This document shows positions 11,722-54,400 of a stretch of 64,000 nt of DNA, one piece after another. Every line of letters begins with the position of its first letter. The stretch's first letter is position 1. The stretch is from a virus. Under the pieces are notes generated by a model that had not been told where the DNA came from, did not search any database, and was given only the letters and a program-made list of their open reading frames with translations. The translations under genes and the position numbers were made by a program. The stretch spans positions 1 through 64,000 of IMG/VR virus record IMGVR_UViG_3300028844_003967. One strand, written 5' to 3'.

Positions 11722-11827
11722 GTTTTTTATAAAGATTAATAATTTTTTCTTCAAAGTCAATGAACAAAAAGTCCATTTCTAATTCGTACTTGTCGAATAT
11801 ATCACGTAGTTTTTCTTTTAGGCTCAT
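11702..11827 (-). CDS. possible 41-residue protein
   Basis: ATG 11827 to TGA 11702 encodes a charged helical peptide (Lys/Glu/Asp-rich). It overlaps the end of the NinB-like gene by 26 bases and the start of the next gene by 20 bases. It would fill the only gap between them. Overlaps of this kind are common in this block, but the ORF is short and could be chance. Confidence 0.4.
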   Translation of the reverse strand: MSLKEKLRDIFDKYELEMDFLFIDFEEKIINLYKKHGIKSN

Positions 11828-12266
11828 AATTATTCATATAACAATCTTCATTTGGGTCTGGAATATCTATTCCTTTATTAGCAAAATGCACTTGTAACTG
11901 AAATTTAAATGTATTAAATTCTTTAGTTGTCATAGCGCTTGTGCTTTTAGTTTCAGAATATGTAACTAATTTACCCATTACTTCTTTAGTTCTAAATTTT
12001 GCTTTTACAATTTCGTTTAATATATAGTGATGAATATCCTCTTTTTCATAAGGCTCTCCTTCTATCTCTAATAGAACTTCTTGTACTGTTTTAATAGCTA
12101 CACCCCAATACCAACGATTCTGTTTAGCAGAACGTCTTTTATTTGCTTTCTTAATAGTAATTTCAATTTCTTTGTCTTTGTATTGCGTAAGCATGCTTTT
12201 AACAAAATCATGATTATTAATTACTATCTGTCCATTTTTGTCTACTGTTCCTATAAATGCGTTCAT
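11802..12266 (-). CDS. NinB / Orf-like recombination protein
   Basis: The 154-residue protein has the NinB pattern: an N-terminal strand region, then RRSAKQNRWYWG (about 45-56) with the conserved Q-N-R-x-x-W core, and a helical C-terminal half. Lambda NinB (Orf) is a single-strand DNA-binding recombination mediator working with SSB. Here the SSB gene lies immediately upstream in the operon, which fits. The family call is by motif only. Confidence 0.65.
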   Translation of the reverse strand: MNAFIGTVDKNGQIVINNHDFVKSMLTQYKDKEIEITIKKANKRRSAKQNRWYWGVAIKTVQEVLLEIEGEPYEKEDIHHYILNEIVKAKFRTKEVMGKLVTYSETKSTSAMTTKEFNTFKFQLQVHFANKGIDIPDPNEDCYMNNYEPKRKTT

Positions 12267-12315: not shown

Positions 12316-12948
12316 TTAGAATGGTAAATCATCATCTTCATCACCTAATTGTTGAGATTTTTCAACTGGCTCCATTTCTCTTGCAGTTTGTGGCATAGGA
12401 TTATTATCTCTTTCCCATATTTTTAATTCGCCATCAAACTTAGCTTTATCATCAGGTCTAAGAGTTTTTCTAAAATAATCACTCTTACCAGTTAGTTCTT
12501 CGTTAACCGGGCCGGAATATAAATATCTAATAGCCTCTTTAACTACAGGCTTATTATTGTTATTTTTATCATATCCGATATACTCTTCAGCTCGAAATAA
12601 AACTTTTATTTCTTTGCCTATTACATCAACTAATGCTTTTGCACCTTTAGACTTCATATCTACTCCAGCATTTGTAAAGAACTCTTTAATTGCTTTTAAT
12701 TTAAATCCTCTTGTATCTGCTGAATCAGCATCTCTTGTTCTAAAAAACTTTGATGTATTTAATTCTGCTGTAGATGTATCTCTAAATTCAACTTCCATAT
12801 AAGGACAGCCCTTATAATCTTTATTGATATCTTCAGATAGTTCACATTTTTGTACTTCTGCTACAGTAACTCTTGGAGAGCTCATGTATTTACTTTTTTG
12901 TTCAATTTGGTGCTTTTCAGCTTCTGCAAATTCTTTGTCAAAACTCAT
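12316..12948 (-). CDS. single-stranded DNA-binding protein
   Basis: The 210-residue protein has an OB-fold-like N-terminal region (VTVAEVQKCELSEDINKDYKGCPYMEVEFRD). It ends in the acidic tip DEDDDLPF, which matches the classical SSB tail that recruits partner proteins. The tail is the strongest evidence. It lies between the Sak4-like ATPase and the NinB-like gene, as in annealing modules of other phages. A UUCG hairpin follows the stop. Confidence 0.75.
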   Translation of the reverse strand: MSFDKEFAEAEKHQIEQKSKYMSSPRVTVAEVQKCELSEDINKDYKGCPYMEVEFRDTSTAELNTSKFFRTRDADSADTRGFKLKAIKEFFTNAGVDMKSKGAKALVDVIGKEIKVLFRAEEYIGYDKNNNNKPVVKEAIRYLYSGPVNEELTGKSDYFRKTLRPDDKAKFDGELKIWERDNNPMPQTAREMEPVEKSQQLGDEDDDLPF

Positions 12949-12979: not shown

Positions 12980-13645
12980 CTACTTTTTAGTAGGCTCTTC
13001 TTCATTGTAATATTCTTCAATAACTTTAATTACTTCAGCTATATCGTTTGGCATTTGCTTAGGTAGCATTTCCATTGGAGATTTAGCTGAAACATGCTCA
13101 TAACCTTTCTGACGATTAGTTATAAATCTATATTCAGGATCTCCGTTTTCATTTGTTACCATATCTGAGAAAAGAACTATTACAAATTCTTTTTCTACTT
13201 TTTTCTTAAGACTACCATCTACAGATATAAATCTTTCCTCTACACCTCCTGCTCCTTCAAGCACTTGGTCGATTCCCGTCATTATAACATATTTATTAGT
13301 ATTCTTAGACTTATGTAATATTCTCATAAGTTCTTTTTTGTATTCATCCCAAAAATCAAAACCTTTAAATGCTTTACCAATTTCTCTATAAGCGTGTTCT
13401 GTTAAAGAAGTAAAACTTTCAACAACAACTATATCTGCTTTATTACTTGAAATTGCTTTATCAAATGTTTTTTCAAAAGCATCTAAATCAGCTATAGGAA
13501 CGTTTAATTTAAACTTTCCAGCGCCTTTAAATGGCAAAGCTTTTTGCTCTGTATTAATAATAATTGTTCTTTCAGGATTTAAATTTCTGAGTGAAGAACT
13601 CTTTCCGGTACCAGATGGCCCGACAATAAAAATGTTTGGTTTCAT
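12980..13645 (-). CDS. Sak4-like / AAA_24 RecA-fold ATPase
   Basis: A Walker A motif (GPSGTGKS, 9-16) opens the protein. The Walker B region is ADIVVVESFTSL near residue 70. The 221-residue length and the N-terminal P-loop match the AAA_24/Sak4 family of phage single-strand annealing ATPases, which work with SSB. The SSB gene follows directly. This arrangement suggests homology-dependent repair or replication restart of phage DNA. Confidence 0.75.
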   Translation of the reverse strand: MKPNIFIVGPSGTGKSSSLRNLNPERTIIINTEQKALPFKGAGKFKLNVPIADLDAFEKTFDKAISSNKADIVVVESFTSLTEHAYREIGKAFKGFDFWDEYKKELMRILHKSKNTNKYVIMTGIDQVLEGAGGVEERFISVDGSLKKKVEKEFVIVLFSDMVTNENGDPEYRFITNRQKGYEHVSAKSPMEMLPKQMPNDIAEVIKVIEEYYNEEEPTKK

Positions 13646-13909: not shown

Positions 13910-14167
13910 TTATTTAGGTTTTCTTGGTGCTGAATCTTTTCTAATTCTTAAGTTTACACTCTTACCTTTTTCATTTACTATTTTTTTATATTTAGTAGTT
14001 AATTTTAATTTAAAATAACCTTTAATATTGATTTCTTCGTTTCTTAACATCAAAGAACGACAAGCAAGGAAGAACCGTCTAATGACTATATGAATTACTT
14101 TCGGATGGATTCCTGTATTCTCCGATATTTCTTTGACGATTTTGGTATTCTTCCAATTCTTTTTCAT
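13910..14167 (-). CDS. IHF/HU-like DNA-binding protein
   Basis: The pattern ISENTGIHPKVIHIVIRRFF, then EEINIKGYFKLKL and a basic tail follows the HU/IHF fold: a helix-turn-helix-like start, a long helix and the beginning of the DNA-binding arm. crAss-like phages carry divergent IHF subunits. The full 85 residues are needed for the fold, so the gene really overlaps the end of dnaB by 89 bases in another frame. It probably bends phage DNA for replication or packaging. Confidence 0.65.
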   Translation of the reverse strand: MKKNWKNTKIVKEISENTGIHPKVIHIVIRRFFLACRSLMLRNEEINIKGYFKLKLTTKYKKIVNEKGKSVNLRIRKDSAPRKPK

Positions 14168-15512
14168 TATAAGGATTATTACAAAATTTAGTTAACTCAC
14201 TAATAAAGTATGTTTCTACACTTCCCATTCCGGTATTTCTACCTTTAGCTATTATTATTTCAGCTTGTTCGATAGGTGGAATACCTTCTTCAATTTGAAA
14301 ATAAGCTGGTCTATGTACAAATATAACTGTATCAGCATCTTGTTCTATAGCGCCTGATTCTCTCAAATCTCCAAGAGTAGGTCTTTTATTAGCTCTACCA
14401 TGAATTGCTCTGTTAATTTGAGATAAAGCCATTACTACTATTCCTAATTCAGATGCAATTTCTTTTAACATTCTTGACATTTTAGCAATTTCTTGCTCAC
14501 GATTATTAGCGCCTGGTATGTCACATGTCATTAACTGAAGATAGTCTATAACTACAAATCTAACTTCATATCTAATAAAATATTTTCTAATTTTATTACA
14601 TATTTTAGTAATGCTTCTTGATTTATCATCAATCCACCATTTTTGTTTAGACAATCTTTCTTTAGTTGTATCTCTCATTTGATAATTTTTATAAGACATA
14701 CACTTATTTCTTATGTTTTTCAATGGAATAAAAGCATCTGATGCAATAATTCTGTTAATTAAAGCAGTTTCACTCATTTCTAAAGAAAACATAGCTACAC
14801 GAACACCACTTAGAATATTATTTTTAAATATTTCTAATGCTAATGAAGTTTTACCCATTGATGGAGCTGCTGCAAGAATTACTAAATCATGTGGTTCAAA
14901 ACCTGTAATATGTAAATCAAGTTCAGTTAAATGTGTTTTAATAAAATGTGTTGTATCTTGATTGTCTTGATAGTCTATAGCCTTATCTAAAGCTTTGTTT
15001 ACATCAAACTCTTCAATTTCTCCCATTTCTTGAATTTCAATTATCTTTTCAGATATAGAACCAAGAATTAGCATAGGATCAACCATTTCATTACAACTTT
15101 CATTTACTTTGTCTGATAACAGCATTAATGCTCTACGTCTGGCATATCCATTTAATAATTTAATATGTTCCAGCAAATGTTCGTCATTGTCAATACGTTC
15201 ACATATATCATTGAGATAAACAATTAGGTCAAAACCTATCTTTTTCTCCATCACATAATCAACATATTTTTTACTTGTTAAGTAATCAGTTACCAAAACT
15301 ATATCAACTTTTGATTCATTTGATAACTCTCTTACCGCACTGTAGATATACTTACATTCTATTGTAGAAAATTCGTGAATACTTAGTTGGTCTGCAACCT
15401 GATAATAAGTATCTGGAAAATTAATAAAAGTAGCAAGTACAATTTCTTCTAAATCAGTATTTGATTGACCGATAAAGTTACTTTCTGTAAAAAAATCTAA
15501 TTGTTCACTCAT
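14079..15512 (-). CDS. dnaB: replicative DNA helicase, DnaB family
   Basis: The 477-residue protein has the DnaB N-terminal helical domain (about 15-130) and a RecA-type motor. Walker A is AAPSMGKT (215-222), the Walker B region is FVVIDYLQLM, and GDLRESGAIEQDAD matches motif 3. It unwinds DNA at the phage fork. No primase domain is fused. Its 3' end overlaps the IHF-like gene. A hairpin of the intercistronic family lies upstream, after the ThiF-like gene's start region. Confidence 0.92.
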   Translation of the reverse strand: MSEQLDFFTESNFIGQSNTDLEEIVLATFINFPDTYYQVADQLSIHEFSTIECKYIYSAVRELSNESKVDIVLVTDYLTSKKYVDYVMEKKIGFDLIVYLNDICERIDNDEHLLEHIKLLNGYARRRALMLLSDKVNESCNEMVDPMLILGSISEKIIEIQEMGEIEEFDVNKALDKAIDYQDNQDTTHFIKTHLTELDLHITGFEPHDLVILAAAPSMGKTSLALEIFKNNILSGVRVAMFSLEMSETALINRIIASDAFIPLKNIRNKCMSYKNYQMRDTTKERLSKQKWWIDDKSRSITKICNKIRKYFIRYEVRFVVIDYLQLMTCDIPGANNREQEIAKMSRMLKEIASELGIVVMALSQINRAIHGRANKRPTLGDLRESGAIEQDADTVIFVHRPAYFQIEEGIPPIEQAEIIIAKGRNTGMGSVETYFISELTKFCNNPYNEKELEEYQNRQRNIGEYRNPSESNSYSH

Positions 15513-15532: not shown

Positions 15533-15556
15533 TCAAGGAGCAACGAAGCCCCTTGA
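15533..15556 (-). repeat. UUCG-family hairpin c (variant loop)
   Basis: In minus-strand RNA this is a 9-bp stem with one G-U wobble and a UUCGUU loop. It lies directly after the ThiF-like stop and before dnaB. Confidence 0.6.
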
Positions 15557-15559
15557 AAG

Positions 15560-16324
15560 TTACAATCCTATTGGATTTGTTTTTCCTGTTTCTAAATTAA
15601 TGTAATATCCTCTTTGAGTAATTGAATAATCTTTAAGTAGTTTCCATAATAAATTCAATCCCATATAAGAAACAATAGGATTAATAAATAAGTCTTGCTT
15701 TTCAATAGCTTCTGCTACTGAACAGCTTGGCTCATTATCATCTTTAATACTCTTTAAATCAAATTCTTTATCAATAGTTGGTAATTTTTCAATAGTCTTG
15801 TATTTCTTTGATTTAGGCTGTTTGGTTCTATCAGAGCTTCCAAGTATTACTTGACCTGATTTATTACTATTGCCTAAGTCTAACCAATAATAAGGTTTTT
15901 CCCAATCTTGATATACTTTTGTCTTATTCCAATATTTTGAAATATTCATTCTTGCTTTAGCAGTATCAACACAACTTATAACAATGTTAGTGTGTTCAGC
16001 TGTTTCTTTATCGTATTTATAGTTAGTGCTATGCCAAGAGGTTCCATAAAATCTATTGATTCTTGAAATAAGAACATCAGCTTTGTATCTACCTACATCA
16101 GATGCAGAAAATAGCTGTCTACCAAAATTTGCTTCTGTTACTTTATCATCATCAAACATAATAGCTAATAAGCCGGGATGTCCTAATGCTTGTAAGGTAA
16201 CATTCATTCTTGCCAATCCTTGAATTACTTGTGAACCATTACCTCCAGCTCCAATTACATTTACTGTAATTGGATGAGGTGGATTAACTATATAATCAGG
16301 AGCATAATGTATTTTAGACTTCAT
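15560..16324 (-). CDS. PRTRC-type ThiF (E1-like activating enzyme)
   Basis: A Rossmann nucleotide-binding motif (VIGAGGNGSQ, GAGGNG at 25-30) is followed by DDDKVTEANFGRQLF (58-72), the ATP/adenylation signature of ThiF/MoeB/E1 enzymes with Asp, Asn66, Arg69 and Gln70. Lys81 and ISCVD (116-120) also fit. No CxxC zinc pairs are present. The gene overlaps the upstream E2-like gene by ATGA and is part of a run E, C, F-position, B, ThiF, the order of PRTRC cassettes. It would adenylate the ubiquitin-like C protein; this is inference. Confidence 0.8.
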   Translation of the reverse strand: MKSKIHYAPDYIVNPPHPITVNVIGAGGNGSQVIQGLARMNVTLQALGHPGLLAIMFDDDKVTEANFGRQLFSASDVGRYKADVLISRINRFYGTSWHSTNYKYDKETAEHTNIVISCVDTAKARMNISKYWNKTKVYQDWEKPYYWLDLGNSNKSGQVILGSSDRTKQPKSKKYKTIEKLPTIDKEFDLKSIKDDNEPSCSVAEAIEKQDLFINPIVSYMGLNLLWKLLKDYSITQRGYYINLETGKTNPIGL

Positions 16325-17013
16325 ATTCCTAAATTTTCTTTAATATTATTAACTATTAGACTTTCTAATAATTCATCTGTAGGAAACTTGTTTTTTCCAT
16401 TTAATGATTCCCAAAGCTGATGTAAATCAGTTTTTGATTTAGATAAAACATTTTTCATGTTATGGCTAAATTTACTTTCCCAAAATCCTAATTCGATTCC
16501 TTTAATGTAATCTTCATAGTATTTTGCATCATTTGGCCATTTACCCGTTCCCCAACATACACTTCCATTATCACTAACATTAGAAAATGGAGCTATAAAC
16601 AGCTTAGTTTTACTGTTTAGTTTATTGCTTTTCATTGCGTATATGGATAGCTTATTGTTTTCAGCAACCCAAAGCAAACGCGGAACAGGAGCAATTATAT
16701 CTTTTAATTCAACAGATTTAGTAAAATACATCCTCATTATTTGAGGATTAGTTGTCCAAGCAACAAGAGTGTGACCAGGACTATTTCTTACAGTTATTAT
16801 ATTCTTAGGTATTCTTCCTTTAAATTGAAGTCTATCAGTAACATCAACAGACATAGTGTCCATTATATCAACAATAGTATTTTTCATTAAAGGATGAGTT
16901 GCCCCAAAAGACAAATCATCCTTAATAGAGCAAGATTCTAAGTAGTAATCACTACCACTCCTATGAACTATAATAGCTTGTACAGGTTTATAAAGTTTTT
17001 CTTTTAGTTCCAT
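16321..17013 (-). CDS. PRTRC system protein B (E2-like, Prok-E2_D)
   Basis: I chose ATG 17013 over 17115: it starts right after the preceding gene's TAA (17015-17017), with no overlap, and begins with MELKEKLYKPVQAII as family members do. The core PRLLWVAENNKLSIY followed by LFIAPFSNVSDNGSVCWGTG matches PRTRC protein B. Cys153 of the VCWG motif is in the position of an E2-like catalytic cysteine. The protein is 230 residues. Its TGA overlaps the ThiF start (ATGA). Confidence 0.78.
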   Translation of the reverse strand: MELKEKLYKPVQAIIVHRSGSDYYLESCSIKDDLSFGATHPLMKNTIVDIMDTMSVDVTDRLQFKGRIPKNIITVRNSPGHTLVAWTTNPQIMRMYFTKSVELKDIIAPVPRLLWVAENNKLSIYAMKSNKLNSKTKLFIAPFSNVSDNGSVCWGTGKWPNDAKYYEDYIKGIELGFWESKFSHNMKNVLSKSKTDLHQLWESLNGKNKFPTDELLESLIVNNIKENLGI

Positions 17014-17014
17014 A

Positions 17015-18226
17015 TTACATTTTTTCCCAGTTCCAAATCTCTCTATAATAAATATCAGTTCCGAAATCAAACCATTGTTCAAGTTCTTTTCCGAACAACT
17101 CATATTTTTCATCAAAATTATTTACATAATGATCAGCTGTCAATACAGAATAAGCACGAGTTTCAATTACTCCAACTTGTCCTGCATGGTCATTTAACCA
17201 TTGCTCAATACCAAATTCCCAAAATGGACATCTAAAATCCCATTCAAACTTTAAAAAATCTAAAGCTGTTACTGGATGACCAGATTCATACTCATCTTCT
17301 GTAATGAAAATTAAATCATTGATTGTAACGTTATTATGATTATAATATAATTTCATTCCATTTTTAGCCCATTCTAATAATTCAATAAACATAGAGTTTC
17401 TTGGCTTATAAGTATTGATTTCATTCATTAGCCAATCTTCATCAATCATTTTATAGATATCGTTTATTTCTTTTATTAGTAAATATCCAATTCCATCTTT
17501 AATTGGAATTTTATATCTACTATCAGGTCTCCAATGAATAAAATTCTTTAATTCATTAGCTGAACAAGATTCAAGAAAACCTTTTTTGTTCCAATTAAAA
17601 TCAACTTTATCTTCGCAGTCTACTAAACTATCAAAAAACATTTCTTTAGCATCTTCGCTAAACCCTTCTTGAAAATCATTTAATAAAAATTTACCTTTAA
17701 CTAATGAAATAACATTTCTTATTATTACATATAATTTTGGGTTTTCATTTCTTAATTGAATTAGCCATTTTAAAGGCATAGAAACTTGATTACACAACAT
17801 ATCGTGAGCACAATATGATTGTATATGTAAATCTCCATTAATATCTTCAATAAGAGTTTCTGCATTATTAGGCATAAGCCTATCAATTTTACTTTGCATT
17901 AAAGAAACAATATCATTTACACTCATGTCTTTTGTAAACACTAAGTCATTATTGTACTTAGGGTGGTTTTTAATACATGCATATAAATTAGATACAAAAT
18001 TATTGCGTACGTTGAAGCTACCTTGCTTCAACTGTACGCATAATTCATTGTAAAATTCTTGTTTCTTTAAGGAATGTGGTCTATTTGATTTGATGACATT
18101 ATTTGTCTTTCTTGATTCTCTAATGTTACTCCCCAATTTTCCTCTTGAGAAAATATTCTTCCCAAGTATTGGTGAAAGCTCTTTAGAGATTCGTTTTGTT
18201 TCAAATGTTTCAATTCCTGTTTGCAT
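17015..18226 (-). CDS. protein in the PRTRC-F position, possible PRTRC F
   Basis: This 403-residue protein lies between PRTRC C and PRTRC B, the place taken by proteins F and A in known cassettes. Its length is closer to F. It is tryptophan- and aromatic-rich in the C-terminal half (WDFRCPFWEFGIEQWLNDHAG, WFDFGTDIYYREIWNW), with no catalytic motif I can name. The first 53 codons overlap an alternative 63-codon frame (18067-18258) that starts two bases after PRTRC C, so the true N-terminus is uncertain. Assignment to F is by position and length only. Confidence 0.5.
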   Translation of the reverse strand: MQTGIETFETKRISKELSPILGKNIFSRGKLGSNIRESRKTNNVIKSNRPHSLKKQEFYNELCVQLKQGSFNVRNNFVSNLYACIKNHPKYNNDLVFTKDMSVNDIVSLMQSKIDRLMPNNAETLIEDINGDLHIQSYCAHDMLCNQVSMPLKWLIQLRNENPKLYVIIRNVISLVKGKFLLNDFQEGFSEDAKEMFFDSLVDCEDKVDFNWNKKGFLESCSANELKNFIHWRPDSRYKIPIKDGIGYLLIKEINDIYKMIDEDWLMNEINTYKPRNSMFIELLEWAKNGMKLYYNHNNVTINDLIFITEDEYESGHPVTALDFLKFEWDFRCPFWEFGIEQWLNDHAGQVGVIETRAYSVLTADHYVNNFDEKYELFGKELEQWFDFGTDIYYREIWNWEKM

Positions 18227-18258
18227 AATTTGTCTATAATTTTTAGATTTTCATCCAT
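18067..18258 (-). CDS. possible 63-residue protein overlapping the F-position gene
   Basis: ATG 18258 lies two bases beyond the PRTRC C stop and opens a frame of 63 codons rich in Lys, Glu, Gln and Leu. It overlaps the 5' part of the F-position gene in another frame for 160 bases. Both frames have similarly A/T-rich third positions, so composition does not decide. It could be a separate small gene, or the real N-terminus of the F-position protein joined by a frameshift. Confidence 0.3.
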   Translation of the reverse strand: MDENLKIIDKLCKQELKHLKQNESLKSFHQYLGRIFSQEENWGVTLENQERQIMSSNQIDHIP

Positions 18259-18260
18259 TA

Positions 18261-18470
18261 TTATCCTTTTACGCCAACAGTTTTACCAAATTCAAACATT
18301 ATTTCATCATTTTCAATAGATGGGCCTTCAAGTGATGCATTAGTTAATTCGGGATATTGTCCTGAATAAAATTGCATTACATCTTTAGCTTCCATAATTG
18401 GGTCTGGATCTGATAATGTAAGTTTTCCGTATTTGAATACTCTTTTTAGTGTTTTAGCTTCAAGGCTCAT
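18261..18470 (-). CDS. PRTRC system protein C (ubiquitin-like, Prok_Ub)
   Basis: The 69-residue protein shows the PRTRC C pattern almost throughout: RVFKYGKLTLSDPDP near the start, MQFYSGQYPELTNASLEGP in the middle and FGKTVGVKG at the end. The family has a ubiquitin-like beta-grasp fold. The chain ends at glycine (VKG), as expected if the C-terminus is activated by the E1-like partner. The start overlaps the end of the PRTRC E gene by 11 bases. Confidence 0.82.
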   Translation of the reverse strand: MSLEAKTLKRVFKYGKLTLSDPDPIMEAKDVMQFYSGQYPELTNASLEGPSIENDEIMFEFGKTVGVKG

Positions 18471-19197
18471 AATTAAATTTATTTACTGATTCAACTTGGA
18501 ATTGAGCTTTCGCGTCTAATTCATCTTGTAATACTTCTATTTCTGCTTCACTCATTGGTGCAGAATGAACAATACGATTGTTTTCTATCTCTAATTGATT
18601 AGGAGATTCAGGTAATTCATTTTTAATTTCTTTACCTAATTCATTAGCAATTACCGGAGCAGTTACAGCATCAGCTTTTTGAGCTTCAACAAATAAATCT
18701 ACTTGGTTTTTAATTGGTTTAGCATCTTCTAAATCTTTAGATAATTTGTTTACATTAGCTGCACCAGGAGTTAATTTAATAGCTTTGTCTAATTCTTTTT
18801 CAGCATTCTTAAAATCTTTAGCTGTAATAAATTCATTAGCTTTAATAATAATCTTAGCTACTTTTTCTTTATTCTTTTTAGCTTGAGCTTTTAATTCAGC
18901 TTGGTGTTTATTTTCTTCTGCTAATTTTTCAGCACCTTTCTCAAAATTGTCAATTTCAATAACGATACCTGTAACTTTAGTCATTGGTTCTTTAATAGCA
19001 TTAAAAAACTCTTCGTCAAGTTCTTCAATAGTACCTCTAATAACCATTGGCTGTACACTATCTTTAGCATTGTCTTTAATTCTTGGTTGTGGTAATAGCG
19101 ATACTACAACAGTATCTCCGGAACCTTTAGCAACCGTTAATGTTAAATTCATAGAGCCAAGAAATGGCGCTATAGTAGCGAAAAAATTTGTTTTCAT
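18460..19197 (-). CDS. PRTRC system protein E
   Basis: The N-terminal 90 residues (FFATIAPFLGSMNLTLTVAK, VVVSLLPQPRIKDNAKDS, IRGTIEELDEEFFNAI) match the PRTRC E family, including the typical opening at the initiator Met. The middle is a lysine/alanine-rich helix (about 85-150) and the C-terminal 90 residues are acidic and probably disordered. The biochemical role is unknown. It is the first gene of the cassette and is preceded by a 171-base leader with three hairpins. Confidence 0.78.
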   Translation of the reverse strand: MKTNFFATIAPFLGSMNLTLTVAKGSGDTVVVSLLPQPRIKDNAKDSVQPMVIRGTIEELDEEFFNAIKEPMTKVTGIVIEIDNFEKGAEKLAEENKHQAELKAQAKKNKEKVAKIIIKANEFITAKDFKNAEKELDKAIKLTPGAANVNKLSKDLEDAKPIKNQVDLFVEAQKADAVTAPVIANELGKEIKNELPESPNQLEIENNRIVHSAPMSEAEIEVLQDELDAKAQFQVESVNKFNYEP

Positions 19198-19243: not shown

Positions 19244-19271
19244 TTCAGTTAGCACCGAAGTACTAACTGAA
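19244..19271 (-). repeat. UUCG hairpin d
   Basis: In minus-strand RNA this is a 12-bp stem closed by C(UUCG)G, with one G-U wobble. It is the last of three hairpins in the leader before the PRTRC E gene. Confidence 0.8.
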
Positions 19272-22417: not shown

Positions 22418-22864
22418 TTAAATTAATCCTTCATCAGCAAAGCTATAAAAGCTTTCTTCTGTTATTATTAAATGATCAAGTACTGTAATATCAAGTAACT
22501 TTCCGCAATCTACCATTTTATTAGTAAGATTGATATCGGCTTGACTTGGTTTTAAATTACCTGATGGATGATTGTGTACAAGTATTACGCTTCTTGCATT
22601 ACACAATAAACCATGCTGAAATACAGTTTTAGGGTCTGCAATAGTTCCTGTTAGACCTCCTAATCCAACTATTGTAAAACCAATAGTATTGTTAGCTGTA
22701 TTTAGATATACACACATAAAAGCTTCTCTATAGTCAATTTGTACCGGAAATACTTTCCTTACAAATTCACTTAAAGCTTGAGAAGAATTTATTTTCATCC
22801 TATGTACATCATCTTTCTTAGTATATACTGCTTCCAGTTCTTTAGCAAATGATTTAAGATTCAT
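22418..22864 (-). CDS. RadC / JAMM (JAB) domain protein
   Basis: The 148-residue protein contains the full JAMM metal site: Glu47, His97-x-His99-P-S-G and Asp110. This is the RadC arrangement, without the helix-hairpin-helix part of full-length RadC. JAMM enzymes cleave isopeptide bonds next to ubiquitin-like proteins. RadC-type members are common on mobile elements, with unproven substrates. It is on the same strand as the PRTRC cassette about 4 kb away, whose standard protein A also carries a JAB domain. A hairpin precedes the gene. Confidence 0.85.
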   Translation of the reverse strand: MNLKSFAKELEAVYTKKDDVHRMKINSSQALSEFVRKVFPVQIDYREAFMCVYLNTANNTIGFTIVGLGGLTGTIADPKTVFQHGLLCNARSVILVHNHPSGNLKPSQADINLTNKMVDCGKLLDITVLDHLIITEESFYSFADEGLI

Positions 22865-30246: not shown

Positions 30247-30789
30247 ATGTTTAACGAGCTTATTGAAATAGATAAAGAAGGTAATGTATTTATTCAAGAT
30301 GATTCTATTGCCTTAATGCCAAAACTATGGGCTGTCTATAAAGACAAGTATGGTGGAAGTAAAATGGTAAGATGGATTGTGTCAATGGATGATTACAAGT
30401 CTCCATTTCGTAGATTACCTGAAGAAGAACGTTCTGAAAGATTGACAATGAATATATTTGGAAAGAGAACATTAAGAAGAACTACTGAAAAACTTGTTAC
30501 AGAAGCAAGGCACGAATATAAAATGTTACAGTTTGACCCTATGGTTGATCAGTACAATGCAATGAGTGAGCAAATGTTTCTTATGACTCAAGTATTTAAG
30601 TCTATGAAACCTTCTAAAGATAATTTAGCTGATTTAAATGATATGCAAGTAAAAATGCAAAAAGCAGCAGAAGCACGAGAGAAGCTTAAAACAATGATTA
30701 TTAAAGACCAAGATTCTGATTCTAAAATTAAAGGTACAGGTTCAGATGATTTCTCAATATTTGAAAACGAACAAAGATTAGAAGATTGA
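30247..30789 (+). CDS. putative small terminase subunit
   Basis: The 180-residue helical protein lies immediately upstream of TerL, and its TGA overlaps the TerL TTG start. It has a long probable coiled coil (about 95-150), as in TerS oligomerisation domains. No clear helix-turn-helix is visible, and crAss-like phages have no well-established TerS. The call rests on position and shape. Confidence 0.4.
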   Translation: MFNELIEIDKEGNVFIQDDSIALMPKLWAVYKDKYGGSKMVRWIVSMDDYKSPFRRLPEEERSERLTMNIFGKRTLRRTTEKLVTEARHEYKMLQFDPMVDQYNAMSEQMFLMTQVFKSMKPSKDNLADLNDMQVKMQKAAEAREKLKTMIIKDQDSDSKIKGTGSDDFSIFENEQRLED

Positions 30790-32741
30790 TATCAGCACAA
30801 AAATATTCGCCAGTACTATTTGATAAAAGTATTAATAAGTTTGAAAGCTTTAGAACAGATAGTATAGAGTATTCACAATTTTGGAGAACTCAAAAGGATA
30901 GAATATTAAATGGCTACAAACCCAATGGAGGTGTTTGGATTCCGGGTAATTATTATTTCTATTTAAACTTTTCTAAAATACATGGATTAAACCCAGGTGC
31001 AAAACGTAAAAGCATGATATCTCCATTGTATCGTGACCAAGACCACGAGTACTATCAGGAAGTTCATGAAGCTAAAGAAAACGGTAGAGGAATTATTGTT
31101 TTAAAAGCAAGGCGTAAGGGGTTTTCTTTCATGAATGCCAATATACTTCTGCATGAATGGACTTGCTTTCCTCATTCTGAAAATGGATTAGGAGCGCAGA
31201 AAGAAGATTACGTACAAGATTTTAGAAAAAAGATGTTACTATCGTATAACGAGCTACCACCTCAGTTTAGAAATAAGATACTTCACAACAATGAGGAAAT
31301 CTTTATGTCTGGATATAAAGAAAAGGAGAATGGTATATGGATGGAGAGAGGAACTAAGTCTATGATTCACTTTAGGGTAATGGAAAAGCCAAATGCTTTT
31401 AGGGGTACTTCACTTAACTTTATGGTATTTGAAGAAGCTGGTGAGTTTTTAAAGCTTAAACGTTCTTTTGAATCTTCTGAAGATTGTTTTAAAGAAGGTG
31501 ATGTATTTTTTGGTACACCTATTATTGGTGGAACTTCTAACAACATGGAGATTGAGAGTGATGATTATATGGAAATGTTTTATAATGCTGAACGATATAA
31601 TCTAAAACCTGTATTTATTAAAGCTTCTAAAGTCTTTGGTAGTTTCTTTGATATGAGTACCGGCAAGTCTGATGTTAAAGGTGCTGAAGAATATGTAATG
31701 GCTGAAGCTCAGCGTAGGAAAGAATCAGGTGATTTACAAACTTACTATTCTTACTTACAAGAAAATCCTTTAGAAGTAGAACATGCTTTCTTTAAGTCTG
31801 GTGCTACTCCATTTGATTTAAATAAAATCAATACTCAGATAGGCAATATCATGACTAATAAGAATTTTGATATTGTTAAAAAGGGAAGATTAGATTGGCC
31901 GAAAAATAAGGATGGTAAAACTGTATTTGGAGGAAAGCCAATATGGGTAGATGATGATGGTAGCTTAGATGCTAATGACATAAATAAAGAAATGTTTCCG
32001 TTTGAGATGATTGAAAGACCATTAGATGGAATTAAAAATGCTCATGTTGCTGCAGTCGATCCTTATCATATTGATGATGAGTTAGAAGAAATGAAGAAAG
32101 GTGGTAAGGTAGATAATAAGTCTAAAGGTTCAATGTGTGTATATAGAAGGTTTGTCGATACTAATACTGTATGTGAACTACCAGTTGCATTTTATACAGA
32201 CAGACCTTATTCAAAAGAAGCTTTTTATGAGAACTGTTTAAAGATGTGTATTTATTATGATTCAAGAATATTAGTTGAATACAATGATGATGGTTTTTTA
32301 AAGTACTTTATTAAGAATAAAATGCAGAGATATCTAAAAGAACGACCACGTTCTGCTGATTCTCCAAATAGTAAAGCTACTAACAAGTATGGGGTACATA
32401 TGAAATCATTTCAAAAGAAACTACTTACAGAGCTTGTAGATGAATATGTTAAAAAACATCATGAAGATATTTACTTCTTGAAACTTTTAAATGAACTTGC
32501 AGTATATGGTAAACAAAACACAGATAGGGTAATGTCTTTTGGTATGGCTCTTATTCATTCTATGGATGCTGAAAGAAAGGTTTACGATGAAAAAGAAGAT
32601 GAAGAAGCAGAAAAAATGTTTATTCCTCATTTTGGTAGAAAAAACGATGGCACTATAGTGTCTATTCATAGAGATACGGACGGTAACTTGCAGAAGTCAA
32701 GAAGAAGTCCTAATTTTGATTACGATTTTAGTGATGATTAA
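30786..32741 (+). CDS. terL: terminase large subunit
   Basis: The start is TTG 30786 in a TTGA overlap; no ATG is usable near the N-terminus. The ATPase motor shows KARRKGFS (107-114, Walker A-like) and NFMVFEEAGE (211-220, Walker B with catalytic Glu). The RNase H-like nuclease begins with VAAVDPYH around Asp425, followed by ILVEYNDDG. At 651 residues it is near the usual size. It translocates and cuts DNA at the portal. The gene order that follows is that of crAss-like phages. Confidence 0.9.
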   Translation: MISAQKYSPVLFDKSINKFESFRTDSIEYSQFWRTQKDRILNGYKPNGGVWIPGNYYFYLNFSKIHGLNPGAKRKSMISPLYRDQDHEYYQEVHEAKENGRGIIVLKARRKGFSFMNANILLHEWTCFPHSENGLGAQKEDYVQDFRKKMLLSYNELPPQFRNKILHNNEEIFMSGYKEKENGIWMERGTKSMIHFRVMEKPNAFRGTSLNFMVFEEAGEFLKLKRSFESSEDCFKEGDVFFGTPIIGGTSNNMEIESDDYMEMFYNAERYNLKPVFIKASKVFGSFFDMSTGKSDVKGAEEYVMAEAQRRKESGDLQTYYSYLQENPLEVEHAFFKSGATPFDLNKINTQIGNIMTNKNFDIVKKGRLDWPKNKDGKTVFGGKPIWVDDDGSLDANDINKEMFPFEMIERPLDGIKNAHVAAVDPYHIDDELEEMKKGGKVDNKSKGSMCVYRRFVDTNTVCELPVAFYTDRPYSKEAFYENCLKMCIYYDSRILVEYNDDGFLKYFIKNKMQRYLKERPRSADSPNSKATNKYGVHMKSFQKKLLTELVDEYVKKHHEDIYFLKLLNELAVYGKQNTDRVMSFGMALIHSMDAERKVYDEKEDEEAEKMFIPHFGRKNDGTIVSIHRDTDGNLQKSRRSPNFDYDFSDD

Positions 32742-32754
32742 ATTATATTAATAT

Positions 32755-34953
32755 ATGGAGTTTCCAAGACAGAATATTCCCGAATCTCAAAAAGATGAGG
32801 AATGGCACATGAATACAGTTGATGCTATTATTTCACAAAGCAGACAGAATACGAGATACTTGTCAACAAGAAAAAATGACCACGAGAATTATCTAATTGT
32901 AAATGGAGACTTTGATAACAAGCAGTTTGAGTATGTTACTGACATGTATGGTATTACAGCTCCTGCAAGATTAGTAAATTATCCAATTATACTTCCTAAA
33001 CTTGATTTACTTGCTGGTGAATTAATATCACAACCATTACAATACACTGTAAATGTAGTAAACAGAAATGCTATTCGTAGAAAAAACGAAAAGCGAACTC
33101 AGATTGCAGCTGAAGTTATACTCAAGCCTATTCGTAGAGAAATAGAAAAAGTAATAGGTATGCCTCTTCCAGATGAAGATTTAGGTGCTGAAATTCCTGA
33201 AGATGTAGATGCTTATACTAAAATGAACTTTCGTGACCATGTAGAAGAAATGGTTTATACGGGTCTTTCGTATTGCTCACAAAAATGGGGATTAGACCAA
33301 GTGTTTAAAAGAGGATTTTATGATTTAGGAATTACCGGTAAAGAGTTTTACAGAGTAATGTTAAAAAATGGTGATCCTTATGTAGAGCGTTGTGACCCAA
33401 GGTCAATGCTTTATGATATAGATTCAGATAAAGAAAATATTAAAGATTCTAAATATGCTGGTGTAGATAATTGGTACACAGTTAATGAAATACTTGATAC
33501 TTACAATCTTTACTTAAATAAAGAGCAAATTAATGAGATTGAAGAATTAGAACAACAAGATACTGCTTGGTATCAGGAACAAAACTCTCAATACGATAAT
33601 TATACTTTTGCTAATGGAGAGTCAATGAAGGTTCGTGTAGTTGATGTTCAATGGCGTTCATTTAGGTCTGTTAAATATAAAGTATCTCCAAATAAATATG
33701 ACCCTTCTATTGATTATCATAAAAGAGTTAAAGATAATTATAAAGCTAAAAAAGGAGAGAAGATTGTTACTAAAGTAACTAATGATGTTCGACAAGCTGT
33801 TAAAATTGGTCATAATATTCTTATTAAATGGGGTAGGAAGCCTAATCAAATAAGATACGAAGAAAATTATTCTAATACTTCATTAGATTTCTTTGGTGCA
33901 ATTAGAAATAACTTTAATGGACAAACATTGTCTGTAGTAGATTCTCTTAAAAATATACAAATACTTTATAACATAGTAATGTATCAAATAGAACTTGCAC
34001 TTGCAAGGTCAGGTTCTAAAGCTATTGTATATGATGTTTCTCAGAAACCTAAGAATGTACCATTAGAAGATGTAATGTATCATGCTAAAAACTCTGGTCT
34101 TATTCTTATAAATTCTCGTCAAGAAGGCATGAGTAACTTTAATCAATTTCAATCTATTGATTTTACGCTATCTCAATCAGTTGCTCAAATGACTAATTTA
34201 AAAATAATGCTTGAAGATACTGCTGATAAACTTACAGGAATATCAGCTGCTCGTGCCGGGGTAACTAAGTCAGGAGATTTAGTAGGGGTTACAGAAAGAA
34301 ATGTAATGCAGTCTACATTAATTACTGCTCCATTATTTGATTTACATTATAACCTTGTTGGAGATGTATTGCAAGGTCTATGTGCTTTAATGAAGCCAGC
34401 ATGGGGAATGGAAGGTCGTATGGCTAATATATTTGGAGATATGGGTATGCAAACCTTTAAAATTGACAAATCTATTGCTTTGGACGAGTATGGTATCTTT
34501 GTTGAGAATAGTGGTAGAGAAGTTCAACGTAAACAATCTATGTTGGCTTTAATGGATAGATATGCTTCGTCAGGTAACTTAGATCCTATGGCTGCAATTA
34601 AAGCTGTAAATGCAGACAATGCTACTGAAGTAGAATCAGTATTAGTTCAAGGTCTTGAAGCAGTTCAAGCTGCATCTCTTGATATGGAACAACAGCAAAT
34701 GGCTTTACAAGAACAGACTAATCAAATAAATGCTGAGAAAACTGCTGTTTCTGTTAAAGTTGCTCAAATTAAAGCTGAAGCTGATATTGAAGTTCAGAGA
34801 ATGAAAAATGAAGCAGATGGTATAATTGGTGATGCTGAACGTCAGCATAAAGAAGATATGCAAGGTGCTGAAAGAAAGGCTAAATTAGATGAAGCTATGT
34901 TAATGGCTTCTGGTGAAGAAATGCAAGAAAACAATGAAGCATCTGAAATGTAA
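32755..34953 (+). CDS. portal protein
   Basis: The 732-residue protein directly follows TerL and has the size and layout of crAss-like portals. There is a helical N-terminal wing, a stem-clip region near residues 390-480, and a long C-terminal coiled coil rich in Glu, Gln and Lys (about 620-720) that would form the barrel. The segment RSGSKAIVYDVSQKP is typical of the family as I know it. It forms the dodecameric packaging ring. Confidence 0.8.
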   Translation: MEFPRQNIPESQKDEEWHMNTVDAIISQSRQNTRYLSTRKNDHENYLIVNGDFDNKQFEYVTDMYGITAPARLVNYPIILPKLDLLAGELISQPLQYTVNVVNRNAIRRKNEKRTQIAAEVILKPIRREIEKVIGMPLPDEDLGAEIPEDVDAYTKMNFRDHVEEMVYTGLSYCSQKWGLDQVFKRGFYDLGITGKEFYRVMLKNGDPYVERCDPRSMLYDIDSDKENIKDSKYAGVDNWYTVNEILDTYNLYLNKEQINEIEELEQQDTAWYQEQNSQYDNYTFANGESMKVRVVDVQWRSFRSVKYKVSPNKYDPSIDYHKRVKDNYKAKKGEKIVTKVTNDVRQAVKIGHNILIKWGRKPNQIRYEENYSNTSLDFFGAIRNNFNGQTLSVVDSLKNIQILYNIVMYQIELALARSGSKAIVYDVSQKPKNVPLEDVMYHAKNSGLILINSRQEGMSNFNQFQSIDFTLSQSVAQMTNLKIMLEDTADKLTGISAARAGVTKSGDLVGVTERNVMQSTLITAPLFDLHYNLVGDVLQGLCALMKPAWGMEGRMANIFGDMGMQTFKIDKSIALDEYGIFVENSGREVQRKQSMLALMDRYASSGNLDPMAAIKAVNADNATEVESVLVQGLEAVQAASLDMEQQQMALQEQTNQINAEKTAVSVKVAQIKAEADIEVQRMKNEADGIIGDAERQHKEDMQGAERKAKLDEAMLMASGEEMQENNEASEM

Positions 34954-36147: not shown

Positions 36148-37521
36148 ATGAAATACCATTCAGGTACATATGGTAAGGAAACCATCGAGTCTAATTCGTT
36201 AGTTGCGAATTTACTTAAATATCCAGAAATTGCTAAAACGTTAATTCGTCAATACCCACAATATTCTCTTAACTATTTTGTAGACGGTACAAGCCGATTT
36301 GCAAAAGAAGAGTTAATTGGAGAAAATGCTTTTAGATGGCCTATTATTGGACGTTTAAATCGACCATCTACATTAACTGGTGTTAGTGTTGGAACAGGAG
36401 TAGGTGTAGCTTCTTTTACATTTGAAACAGAAGAAAACTATTTAAATCCTAACGATATTGTAAGATTTAAATCAGGTAGACAAGCAATCATTATGTCAGA
36501 GCCTATTGCTTCTGCAGGTGGTTACACATTTACAGCTAAATTACAGACTAACGATTTAACATTAGCTTTATTAGCTTCTGATGTTGTTGCCGGTCTTACA
36601 GTTAATACTGCTGGTAGTGCTTTCCCTGAAGGTTCAGAAAGAGGTTACGAAAATCACGTTTACCCAGATTGGTACATCAATCACATTGGTATTAACAGAA
36701 AGTCTAAATCTATTACAGGTTCAGCTCTTACTGATATTACTTGGATTGAGAACAACGGTCAACGTCTATGGTACTTTACTGACCAAGACATGATGATGGA
36801 AGAGTTCTATTACCAAAAAGAACTTGATTCTTGGTATAGTACTTCTACTATGGATGCTAACGGAAATTCATTAGTATTTGGAAATGACGGTAAGCCTATC
36901 GTTAAAGGAGATGGTATCTTGAGACAAATTGATGCTGCCAATGTTGATACTTACAATGGTACATTAACTGAAAAAAGATTAACTGACTTCTTAGCACAAT
37001 TATCTCTTAACACAGGAGTTAAGTCTGCACATTGGTTAGTATTTACTGGAACTGGTGGTAGAGTTGCTTTTCACGAAGCTATGAAAGATTTAGTTTACCC
37101 TTCAGGTAACTTAATCTACGATGCTGAAATTGGAAAAGAGCAAGAAATAGGTGTAAACTTTACTACTTATAATGCTTTAGGTCACAGAATGACATTGGTT
37201 GAAAACCCATTGTTTGATGATCCTAACTTACATGGTAATGACATTGACCCAGTTAGTGGTTATCCTAAAGAGTCGTTCAGAATGGTATTCTTAAACTTCG
37301 GTCACACTAACGGTGTTTCTAACATTGAAAGAAAAGTGAAAGGAGCAGGTGGAATTAACAGAGGAATGATTGTTAAGTATATCGCTGGTATGGTTGACCC
37401 ATTTGACCAAAAATCAATGAAAGCTGCAAACTCTCGTGATAGCTTCACTTGTGAAGTATTATGTGAGTCTGGAATTATTGTAAGAAACCCATTGTCTTGT
37501 GGACAGTTGGTATTTGCATAA
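36148..37521 (+). CDS. major capsid protein
   Basis: The 457-residue protein follows the scaffold-like gene, as MCP genes do, and has the size of crAss-like capsid proteins with the HK97 fold. It is highly balanced in composition and uses more C- and T-ending codons than neighbours (for example AAC, TTC, TAC), consistent with a strongly expressed gene. The segment ENGAFRWPIIG-like start and C-terminal CEVLCESGIIVRNPLSC suggest a compact fold. The call relies on context, length and codon use. Confidence 0.75.
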   Translation: MKYHSGTYGKETIESNSLVANLLKYPEIAKTLIRQYPQYSLNYFVDGTSRFAKEELIGENAFRWPIIGRLNRPSTLTGVSVGTGVGVASFTFETEENYLNPNDIVRFKSGRQAIIMSEPIASAGGYTFTAKLQTNDLTLALLASDVVAGLTVNTAGSAFPEGSERGYENHVYPDWYINHIGINRKSKSITGSALTDITWIENNGQRLWYFTDQDMMMEEFYYQKELDSWYSTSTMDANGNSLVFGNDGKPIVKGDGILRQIDAANVDTYNGTLTEKRLTDFLAQLSLNTGVKSAHWLVFTGTGGRVAFHEAMKDLVYPSGNLIYDAEIGKEQEIGVNFTTYNALGHRMTLVENPLFDDPNLHGNDIDPVSGYPKESFRMVFLNFGHTNGVSNIERKVKGAGGINRGMIVKYIAGMVDPFDQKSMKAANSRDSFTCEVLCESGIIVRNPLSCGQLVFA

Positions 37522-51469: not shown

Positions 51470-54400
51470 TTGTTAATGAAGTCTGAAGAAAGTAGTAGAA
51501 TAACAGATAATATGAGTGATGAATTTTTATCTGAATGGATTGAAAGCGGTAAACCTATATCTGAATTTAAAAAATCTCAATCAGGTAAAGAAAAAGGTAT
51601 TGATATAAAAGAAACTGAAGATGCTATAATTGAATCAAATACAGATGATGATGCACGAGTAAAAGCTAATTTAGAAAAATTAAATGCATTAGCTGAACAA
51701 GAAGGTTTTTCTGTAGATGAAGTAGGTCAAAATTTTAAAGAAACAATAGGTCAAGTAAAAAGAGGTGTTCCTACTGGTTTTGAAGATACATATATTCCTG
51801 ATGTTCAGGAAAATAATCAAAGTTGGGCTGCTGATTTTGGCGAAGCATTATATGAAGGATTGGTTATTAACGCTGCAAAAGGAGTTACAAATTTAATTCC
51901 AACAATGTTTCAAATGAATCTTTTTAATACTTATGGGCTTCCTGGTGTTGATAAAAAAATAACAGATGATGTCACTAAGCTTACAATGGATTGGACTTCA
52001 GATTGGATTAATACTACTACTGCTTGGTTTGATGGAATTTCTCCTACATATAGTGATGCTTATTATAGAGGTGATTTTGACCGTAAATTAGCAACTGGAC
52101 TTGGACAAGGGCTTGGGTTTATTGGTGGTATTATGCTTGGTGGTGCGGGAGCCGTAGGTGCAATAGGAAAAGGTTCTAATATTGCTGCAAGACTTGGTAG
52201 TTTTGCAACTGGAACAACCATGATGTACCCAATGGTTTATGAAGAAGCTATTGAAAATAATATTGATCCAGCTCATGCTTCTCGATTAGCTTTAGGTATA
52301 TCGGGATTAGTTTCTTTAACTGAAGGAGCTGCACTTGAAGCTATTGGTAAAACAATGAGTAAACCTCTTGTAAATAAAGCTACTAAAGAAGTTCTAAAAA
52401 AAGAATTAACAAAACTTGGTAAAGCCACTTCATTAAAAGATATATATAAGCTTGAACAAAATTTTGCTAAAGGATTTAGTCAAAAAATTAAAGCTGTAGG
52501 TCCAAAAATGTTTCAAGGTTCTGCTATTGAAGCTGGTCAAGAATTTTCTCAAACATATATTGAGGAAGGAATGAAGCAGTTATATGATGGAACAATAGGT
52601 AGAGACAAGAAAAAAGGTGAAGGTGCTTTTGGTGCAGAAATAAGACCTTGGAAAGAAAAAGGATATGAAACTTTTGAAGAAGCTGTTTTTGGAGGATTAG
52701 TTGGTGGTATTCTTGGTGGAGCACTTCCTTCTACCGGAATGTTTAAAGGAAAAGTTCAGCAAGAAACTTTATTTAATTATGTAAATAAAAATGTTCGTAA
52801 AGGTAAACATAAAAATATATACAAAATAGAGCAATCTATTCGTGAATTACAGAATACAGGAAAATTAAATGAAGAACAAGCTAATCAAGCATCTGCTGAA
52901 ATAAAAAAATTAGTTAAATATTCTAACGAAACTAAGGCATTAAATATAACTGACGATATTGCTAATTATCAATTATATCAACTTTCTGATTATAATAAAC
53001 AAATAAAAAGTAATATAGATAAAAACTTTAAAGAAGCAGATAATTTACCTAAAGCTATTAATCAAGCCTATAGGGTTAATAGAGATATGGGTGATAAATT
53101 AGTAACTGCTATCAATCAGGATATGGATGATATTATTACTGATAAAAAACCATATACAAAAAGTAAAAATAAGTTTGAAAAAAGATTACAAGAGTATAGA
53201 AAACTTGCTGGAAAAGTTTATAATAATGAAATAACCGAAGAAGATTTTAATGCTGAATTAGAATCTATTAAAACTGGTAAAACTGCTAAACCATCACAAC
53301 AAAAAGCAGAGAAGGACAAAGCGAAAGCTGTTGAGTATAAAACTAAAGATGGTGATACTATTACTGAATCAGCTATGCAAGATGCTGAATCTATACTAAA
53401 AGGATATAATGCAGCATTAGATATAAGTCCAGAAGCAGAAGCTGAATTTCAAGCTAAGTTAAAAGAAGAATACGGTATTGAAAAAGAGGGATTAAGATTC
53501 TTAGTAGAAAACGAAGGAAGTACTGTTGATGAAATGAAAGCTAATCTTGAAGCTACTGAGATTGCTGATAAGAAAGAAGAACCTAAAGTTAAAAAAGTAA
53601 AAGCTTATAGAACCGAGGGTACTGAAATGGGGAAACTTGATACTGCTTTTAGAGGTAGTGGAAAGTACTATGCTTTAGATAAACCATTTGTTACTGGTAA
53701 AGAGGGAGAGGTTGTTACTGAAAGTGAAATTGAAATAGATGAGTCTAAAACATTAGATTTAACTAAATCACAAGAAACTGGTAAGGAAGATTCTGCTTCT
53801 AAGAAATATAGCGAAATAAGAAAAGAGGCTAAGAAAAGATTTGATGCTATTCCTCGTAAAGAAAGAAAAACAAATACATTCAATGATTTAGTTCAAGAGG
53901 TTGCTTTAGAACAAGGTATTGAGGGTGTTGTTAGTTACATTGAGCCAGGTGCTCCTGATGTTGATGTAATGAAAGAATACGGTAGGGAATATGTTGACTA
54001 TAGAAAACCTACTGATAAAACTAAAGAAGAAGAACTATCTGTTAAAGAGCAAACAATAGAATCTTTAAAAAATGATTTAAAAGGTGAGTTTGTATCTGAA
54101 GAAGCTAAAAAGGAAATACAAGAAAAAATAGATAAATTAGAAGCTGAAGTAAAAGTTGAAGATGAACTTGATGAAGATGGCGTTGAAGAACAAATCCAAG
54201 AAGATGAACAAGTTGAAGAACAAACAGAAGAAGAATTAAAAAATGATTTAGCTAACATTGAAGATGCAGAAATAGTTGAAGATTTAGAGAAACCAACACA
54301 ACAAAGTAGTGAGGTTAAATCTCAAAAAGATATTGATGATGCTATAGATAGCGCATTTGATTTTCTTAATGATAATGAAAGTGACCCTAAAGAACAAAGA

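Follow-up and report, generated by a model that had tools for sequence, protein, structure and literature searches.

Positions 1–64,000 of the 69220-base and possibly incomplete IMG/VR record IMGVR_UViG_3300028844_003967 form the stretch analyzed here (the window). In the DNA replication block of a crAss-like phage, it contains a cassette of PRTRC genes encoding a ubiquitin-like modifier (protein C), an E1-like enzyme (ThiF), an E2-like protein (protein B), protein E and a protein that we call F (Table 1). The first-pass annotation, made from the sequence, had proposed five adjacent genes of a PRTRC-type ubiquitin-like/E1/E2 cassette at this place. Profile matches above the cut-offs for E, C, ThiF and Prok-E2_D bear this out, the assignments of C to Prok_Ub and of B to Prok-E2_D among them. 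The fifth gene was named correctly by position only, since F had no match in Pfam, NCBIfam or PHROG, and a sixth, small open reading frame (ORF) had gone uncounted. The junctions are as tight as had been described, with an 11-base overlap of E and C, 2 bases between C and the small ORF, 1 base between F and B, and an ATGA joining B to ThiF. Gene order and reading frames are identical across many independent contigs, which argues that the arrangement is not due to chance, and the ratio of nonsynonymous to synonymous substitution rates (dN/dS), from a comparison with the locus L031, is <1 for all cassette genes.

Table 1. Features of the PRTRC cassette, its surroundings and the phage marker genes of the window.
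Feature	Position	Strand	Evidence or remark
PRTRC protein E, 245 aa, first cassette gene	18460–19197	-	PF19556 110 bits (cut-off 26); TIGR03741 56 (38)
PRTRC protein C, ubiquitin-like modifier, 69 aa	18261–18470	-	PF14454 Prok_Ub 87 bits (cut-off 25); TIGR03738 78 (46)
Small ORF, 63 aa, putative sixth gene	18067–18258	-	Conserved; overlaps 5′ end of F in other frame
F-position protein, 403 aa	17015–18226	-	One family with 145 other cassettes (iterated profile)
PRTRC protein B, E2-like, 230 aa	16321–17013	-	PF14460 Prok-E2_D 106 bits (cut-off 25)
PRTRC ThiF, E1-like adenylating enzyme, 254 aa	15560–16324	-	TIGR03736 PRTRC_ThiF 254 bits (cut-off 145)
Terminator-like hairpin directly upstream of E	19244–19271	-	Similar in 13/15 relatives examined upstream
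Terminator-like hairpin directly after ThiF stop	15533–15556	-	Similar in 11/24 syntenic relatives
DnaB-like replicative helicase, conserved neighbor	14079–15512	-	PF03796 266 bits
Small HU-like protein, conserved neighbor	13910–14167	-	Name from sequence only; synteny
Sak4-like ssDNA annealing protein, conserved neighbor	12980–13645	-	phrog_2872 105 bits
SSB-like protein, conserved neighbor	12316–12948	-	DDDLPF tail; name inferred, no PHROG match
NinB/Orf recombination mediator, neighbor	11802–12266	-	phrog_72 63 bits
Terminase large subunit, crAss-like	30786–32741	+	phrog_6681 282 bits; closest GenBank phage relatives crAss-like
Portal protein, crAss-like	32755–34953	+	phrog_6547 276 bits
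Major capsid protein, crAss-like	36148–37521	+	Matches crAss001 gp32 structure 7qof (PDB), E 2.7e-8

The candidate catalytic residues are conserved throughout. Among 184 aligned ThiF proteins the GxGGxG nucleotide-binding glycines, R69, K81 and D120 are essentially invariant, and Cys201 (codon 15722–15724), the candidate catalytic residue, is present in all 184 as part of a PSCS motif, which we take to be comparable to PxCT, the cysteine motif of E1 enzymes in eukaryotes. In protein B, Cys153 (codon 16555–16557) and Asn145, which precedes it by exactly 8 residues and mirrors the HPN...C arrangement, are found in every one of 181 aligned B proteins, while the downstream His184 is found in 166. 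Protein C terminates in VGVKG with Gly69 as its C-terminal residue, and G-x-K-G is the C-terminal end of most of its relatives. In VIA, E2 and UEV folds account for almost all top-ranking alignments of a structural model of protein B. It could be argued that ThiF instead makes a thiocarboxylate on C, as on ThiS, for thiolation of a cofactor or tRNA, since by both profile and solved structure no characterized enzymes come closer than the ThiF and MoeB families. Such a sulfur-carrier pathway would sit poorly with an accompanying E2-like protein whose cysteine never varies, and the most frequent neighbors include no sulfurtransferase or cofactor family, so we consider it improbable.

F was not identified as PRTRC_F or alpha-hel2. 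The profiles of PRTRC_F (TIGR03742) and alpha-hel2 were silent on F of the window and on F of the near-identical locus L006, and an hhalign comparison of the F family with PRTRC_F was not significant; the F proteins of the Polaromonas plasmid pPNAP01 and of Burkholderia phage BgVeeders33 do match TIGR03742. The AlphaFold2 model of F (predicted local distance difference test score, pLDDT, 82.8) has a mostly helical, confident core from about residue 52, preceded by 50 disordered residues. Its sole strong structural match is the predicted structure of A0A6J5L345 from an uncultured Caudovirales phage, a hint that phage copies may already be present, unrecognized, in UniProt.

The start of F (18226) falls within the 63-aa ORF, which is read in another frame. 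An identical scan found such a nested ORF at 111 of 115 junctions between the ubiquitin-like gene and F, against 0/117 control junctions between E2 and ThiF and 3/127 between F and E2. In relatives (loci L006–L242) the nested ORF is 40–70 aa long; its start overlaps the stop of the ubiquitin-like gene in 45 of 136 cases, and its frame relative to F is constant in 131 of 136. Through the overlap the frame of F stays open, while the third frame contains stops in 112/122. The annotation of BgVeeders33 has a 61-aa protein at the same position. From this pattern of reading frames we conclude that the cassette has a sixth gene, nested over the start of F. The disorder of the first 50 residues of F would be expected if this stretch mainly serves the small protein. 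The nested ORF is not listed in the gene tables of the Bacteroidota plasmids that we examined.

The terminase, portal and capsid genes place the contig among the crAss-like phages (Crassvirales), in agreement with the first-pass annotation. As the terminase is only about 25–28% identical to those of known crAss-like phages, this phage is a distant member. The annotation had suggested looking for the same gene order in other crAss-like genomes, and a PRTRC cassette is indeed found together with crAss terminase and portal in five contigs besides the window. More widely, relatives of ThiF occur in 103 viral contigs, 80 of which were kept for analysis, and relatives of C in 60. In about 20 other viral contigs DnaB, HU, Sak4 and an SSB-like gene follow ThiF, whose identity falls as low as about 42%. 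In a quick ThiF tree the window belongs to a group (support 90) made up of 18 syntenic rows, all from phages; the remaining syntenic rows fall elsewhere in the tree, and a single origin for all of them is therefore not shown. Among the 80 best genome contigs with relatives, nearly all are labeled Bacteroidota. PRTRC genes are frequently found on plasmids and in the genomes of Bacteroidota, and a cassette from a plasmid or an integrative and conjugative element could in principle have been fused to a phage contig accidentally or in assembly. The identical junctions in the other viral contigs, the five further contigs with crAss terminase and portal, and the purifying selection on the cassette genes all speak against this, and we regard such an artifact as ruled out, for practical purposes, by the repeated synteny. 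The comparison of these sequences indicates instead that the phage lineage has kept the cassette for a long time and that it is not a stray insertion. In one of the loci (L012 11399–12682, on a contig of 76 kb that also carries a crAss terminase and portal) a tyrosine-integrase-like gene adjoins the cassette, and this contig might represent a temperate crAss-like phage.

The conjugation chemistry of such cassettes has been predicted before, and systems of this kind have until now been recorded chiefly in bacteria and on bacterial plasmids. Iyer, Burroughs and Aravind (2006; PMC1779556) described operon type 6d with an adjacent JAB peptidase gene and an E2-like protein in which a compensating histidine lies downstream of the cysteine. 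The window cassette is like type 6d, and like the classical proteobacterial PRTRC cassette of Polaromonas pPNAP01, in having a ubiquitin-like protein with a terminal glycine, an E2-like protein with a cysteine and a downstream histidine, an E1-like protein and a helical protein. It differs from both in what accompanies these: type 6d has the adjacent JAB gene and the Polaromonas copy has ParB, whereas the phage cassette has neither, and its F gives no match to PRTRC_F. In the 69220-base record we found no protein A (JAB peptidase), with positive controls matched; no ParB-related protein, with a Polaromonas control at 787 bits; and no protein D, for which the control itself scored only below its cut-off. 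The chain described as complete in the first-pass annotation thus holds for E1, E2 and the ubiquitin-like protein and not for these three. A JAB gene hidden elsewhere in the record was considered, and the only weak match was to a RadC-family gene outside the cassette. This JAB-domain gene (22418–22864, minus strand) lies >3 kb upstream of E; it is retained in the nearest relatives and not seen in all syntenic contigs.

Among the closest counterparts are two Bacteroidota plasmids, from Parabacteroides distasonis (NZ_OY725769) and Tunicatimonas pelagia (NZ_CP120684), which have the same E-C-F-B-ThiF order, a ThiF 43–45% identical to that of the window, and likewise no detectable JAB, ParB or D, the controls for A and ParB being clear. 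The Bacteroidota group also shares the unclassified F family and the nested small ORF; its copies lie on plasmids or chromosomal elements, whereas the window copy has the DnaB block of a phage at its side. A phage-borne PRTRC cassette is also present in Burkholderia phage BgVeeders33 and its related prophages (L137–L157), but with a JAB protein A, in BgVeeders33 with a PRTRC_F-type F, and on a separate branch of the ThiF tree, and these phages are not crAss-like. In the Burkholderia-type phages and prophages (L002, L137–L157) C is extended at its C terminus after GTKG, and a JAB gene separates B from ThiF. Among the collected loci, only Burkholderia-type prophages and the Polaromonas plasmid have an A-type JAB. 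This distribution suggests that the extended form of C requires a peptidase and that the Bacteroidota form does not. Another idea is that the cassette is maintained selfishly, without direct service to replication, either as an addiction-like module acting through conjugation and its loss or as an aid to partition. The name PRTRC reflects an association with plasmid ParB (locus L024 has ParB), and addiction was proposed by Iyer et al. (2006; PMC1779556). As the phage and Bacteroidota versions are without ParB, D and a JAB protein as the opposing activity, we find this rather unlikely.

The first-pass annotation had placed the cassette next to dnaB, inside a phage replication operon. The DnaB-like helicase gene does adjoin it and the replication block stands, but terminator-like hairpins separate the cassette from DnaB downstream and from the upstream genes. 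Since these hairpins flank the cassette and recur in many relatives, the cassette is probably a transcription unit of its own within the block; the hairpins are sequence patterns, not measured terminators. Next to the bacterial copies, genes for topoisomerase, beta clamp, SSB and conjugation are among those found. We suggest that an operon kept as its own unit in a replication block makes replication or recombination proteins the likeliest targets, and the replication-type neighbors of both phage and bacterial copies weakly favor a role in replication.

Taken together, the cassette is best described as a JAB-less, Bacteroidota-type PRTRC (type 6d) ubiquitin-like conjugation cassette, and to this description we attach a role in support of replication as its most probable function, a reading to which we give about an even chance of being correct. 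ThiF would bind ATP and adenylate the exposed Gly69 of C, which would then be held as a thioester on Cys201 of ThiF, handed to Cys153 of the E2-like protein B, and passed by B to lysines or another nucleophile on the target. F, together with E and the small protein, would probably bind the substrate in place of an E3. The tag would need no processing, because the glycine of C is exposed from synthesis on, and as the cassette encodes no dedicated isopeptidase, reversal of the tagging by the phage is improbable. The tag would most likely be placed on phage or host proteins of DNA replication or recombination, and the likeliest benefit would be the replication of the element itself.

Several observations weigh against this reading. 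Replication as the target is argued from the neighborhood only, and the hairpins weaken that link. None of the papers that we searched reports conjugation by a PRTRC protein. Protein B scored 87 bits against TIGR03737 PRTRC_B, under the cut-off of 131; passing the Prok-E2_D cut-off and not this one, it would be a diverged member. Its best fold alignment (Z 5.2, 4.3 Å over 127 residues) is modest, Foldseek alone gave no significant match for it, and a sequence search of solved structures found none matching C or B. The model of F matched nothing convincing among solved structures.

The main rival is counter-defense, or a weapon between phages, in which the cassette would tag host defense proteins or structural proteins of competitor phages. 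The studied bacterial systems with E1/E2-type conjugation chemistry in the papers that we read are host defenses: CBASS with Cap2/Cap3 (Cap2, PMC10097602), which has a JAB peptidase, and Bil (BilABCD), which tags phage tail fibers (PMC12948488). Iyer et al. (2006; PMC1779556) also suggested that mobile operons protect against invading replicons. On the other hand, the phage ThiF resembles the PADLOC E1-E2 models only weakly, and the cassette remains beside replication genes across deep divergence. Counter-defense genes usually turn over quickly. We consider counter-defense possible, at perhaps half the likelihood of conjugation in support of replication. As bacterial ubiquitin-like conjugation has mainly been studied as anti-phage defense, a version long kept by phages reverses the question, and three purified proteins would suffice to test the activity of this compact, peptidase-free system.

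The first-pass annotation considered such a system in a phage of this type undescribed. In the papers searched this holds for the PRTRC ubiquitin-like/E2 cassette, and our search of the open-licence literature found no paper on ubiquitin-like genes or ThiF in crAss-like phages, which is a weak negative. The E1 half was already known, since the annotation of crAss001 gives gp76 as ThiF and gp77 as a metalloprotease (JAB), and among phages in general BgVeeders33 already carries a cassette, unrecognized. The gp78-gp77-gp76 block of crAss001 (Steigviridae, Flavobacterium phages) resembles the window in having a ThiF-like E1 in a replication region, but it has a JAB protein and no recognized ubiquitin-like protein, and its ThiF is distantly related. 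This block (L026 2073–5744) is widespread (L005, L027–L030, L243–L278). An HSH...C-x-G motif in its gp78 recalls E2 enzymes; as an E2, gp78 was not supported by hhalign, which was not significant with either 7 or 43 sequences. We tentatively speculate, well short of an even chance, that conjugation is general in crAss-like phages, with the peptidase-free PRTRC cassette and its nested gene in one lineage and gp78 (as E2), JAB and ThiF in the kin of crAss001, both tagging proteins during phage DNA replication. The crAss-like phages, which rank with the most common viruses in the human gut, are in any case now tied to a mobile-operon chemistry predicted in 2006. Elsewhere in the window, a 2973-aa protein (51470–60391, plus strand) that had no match in PHROGs or solved structures contains a DADHDGD motif and is possibly a virion RNA polymerase.

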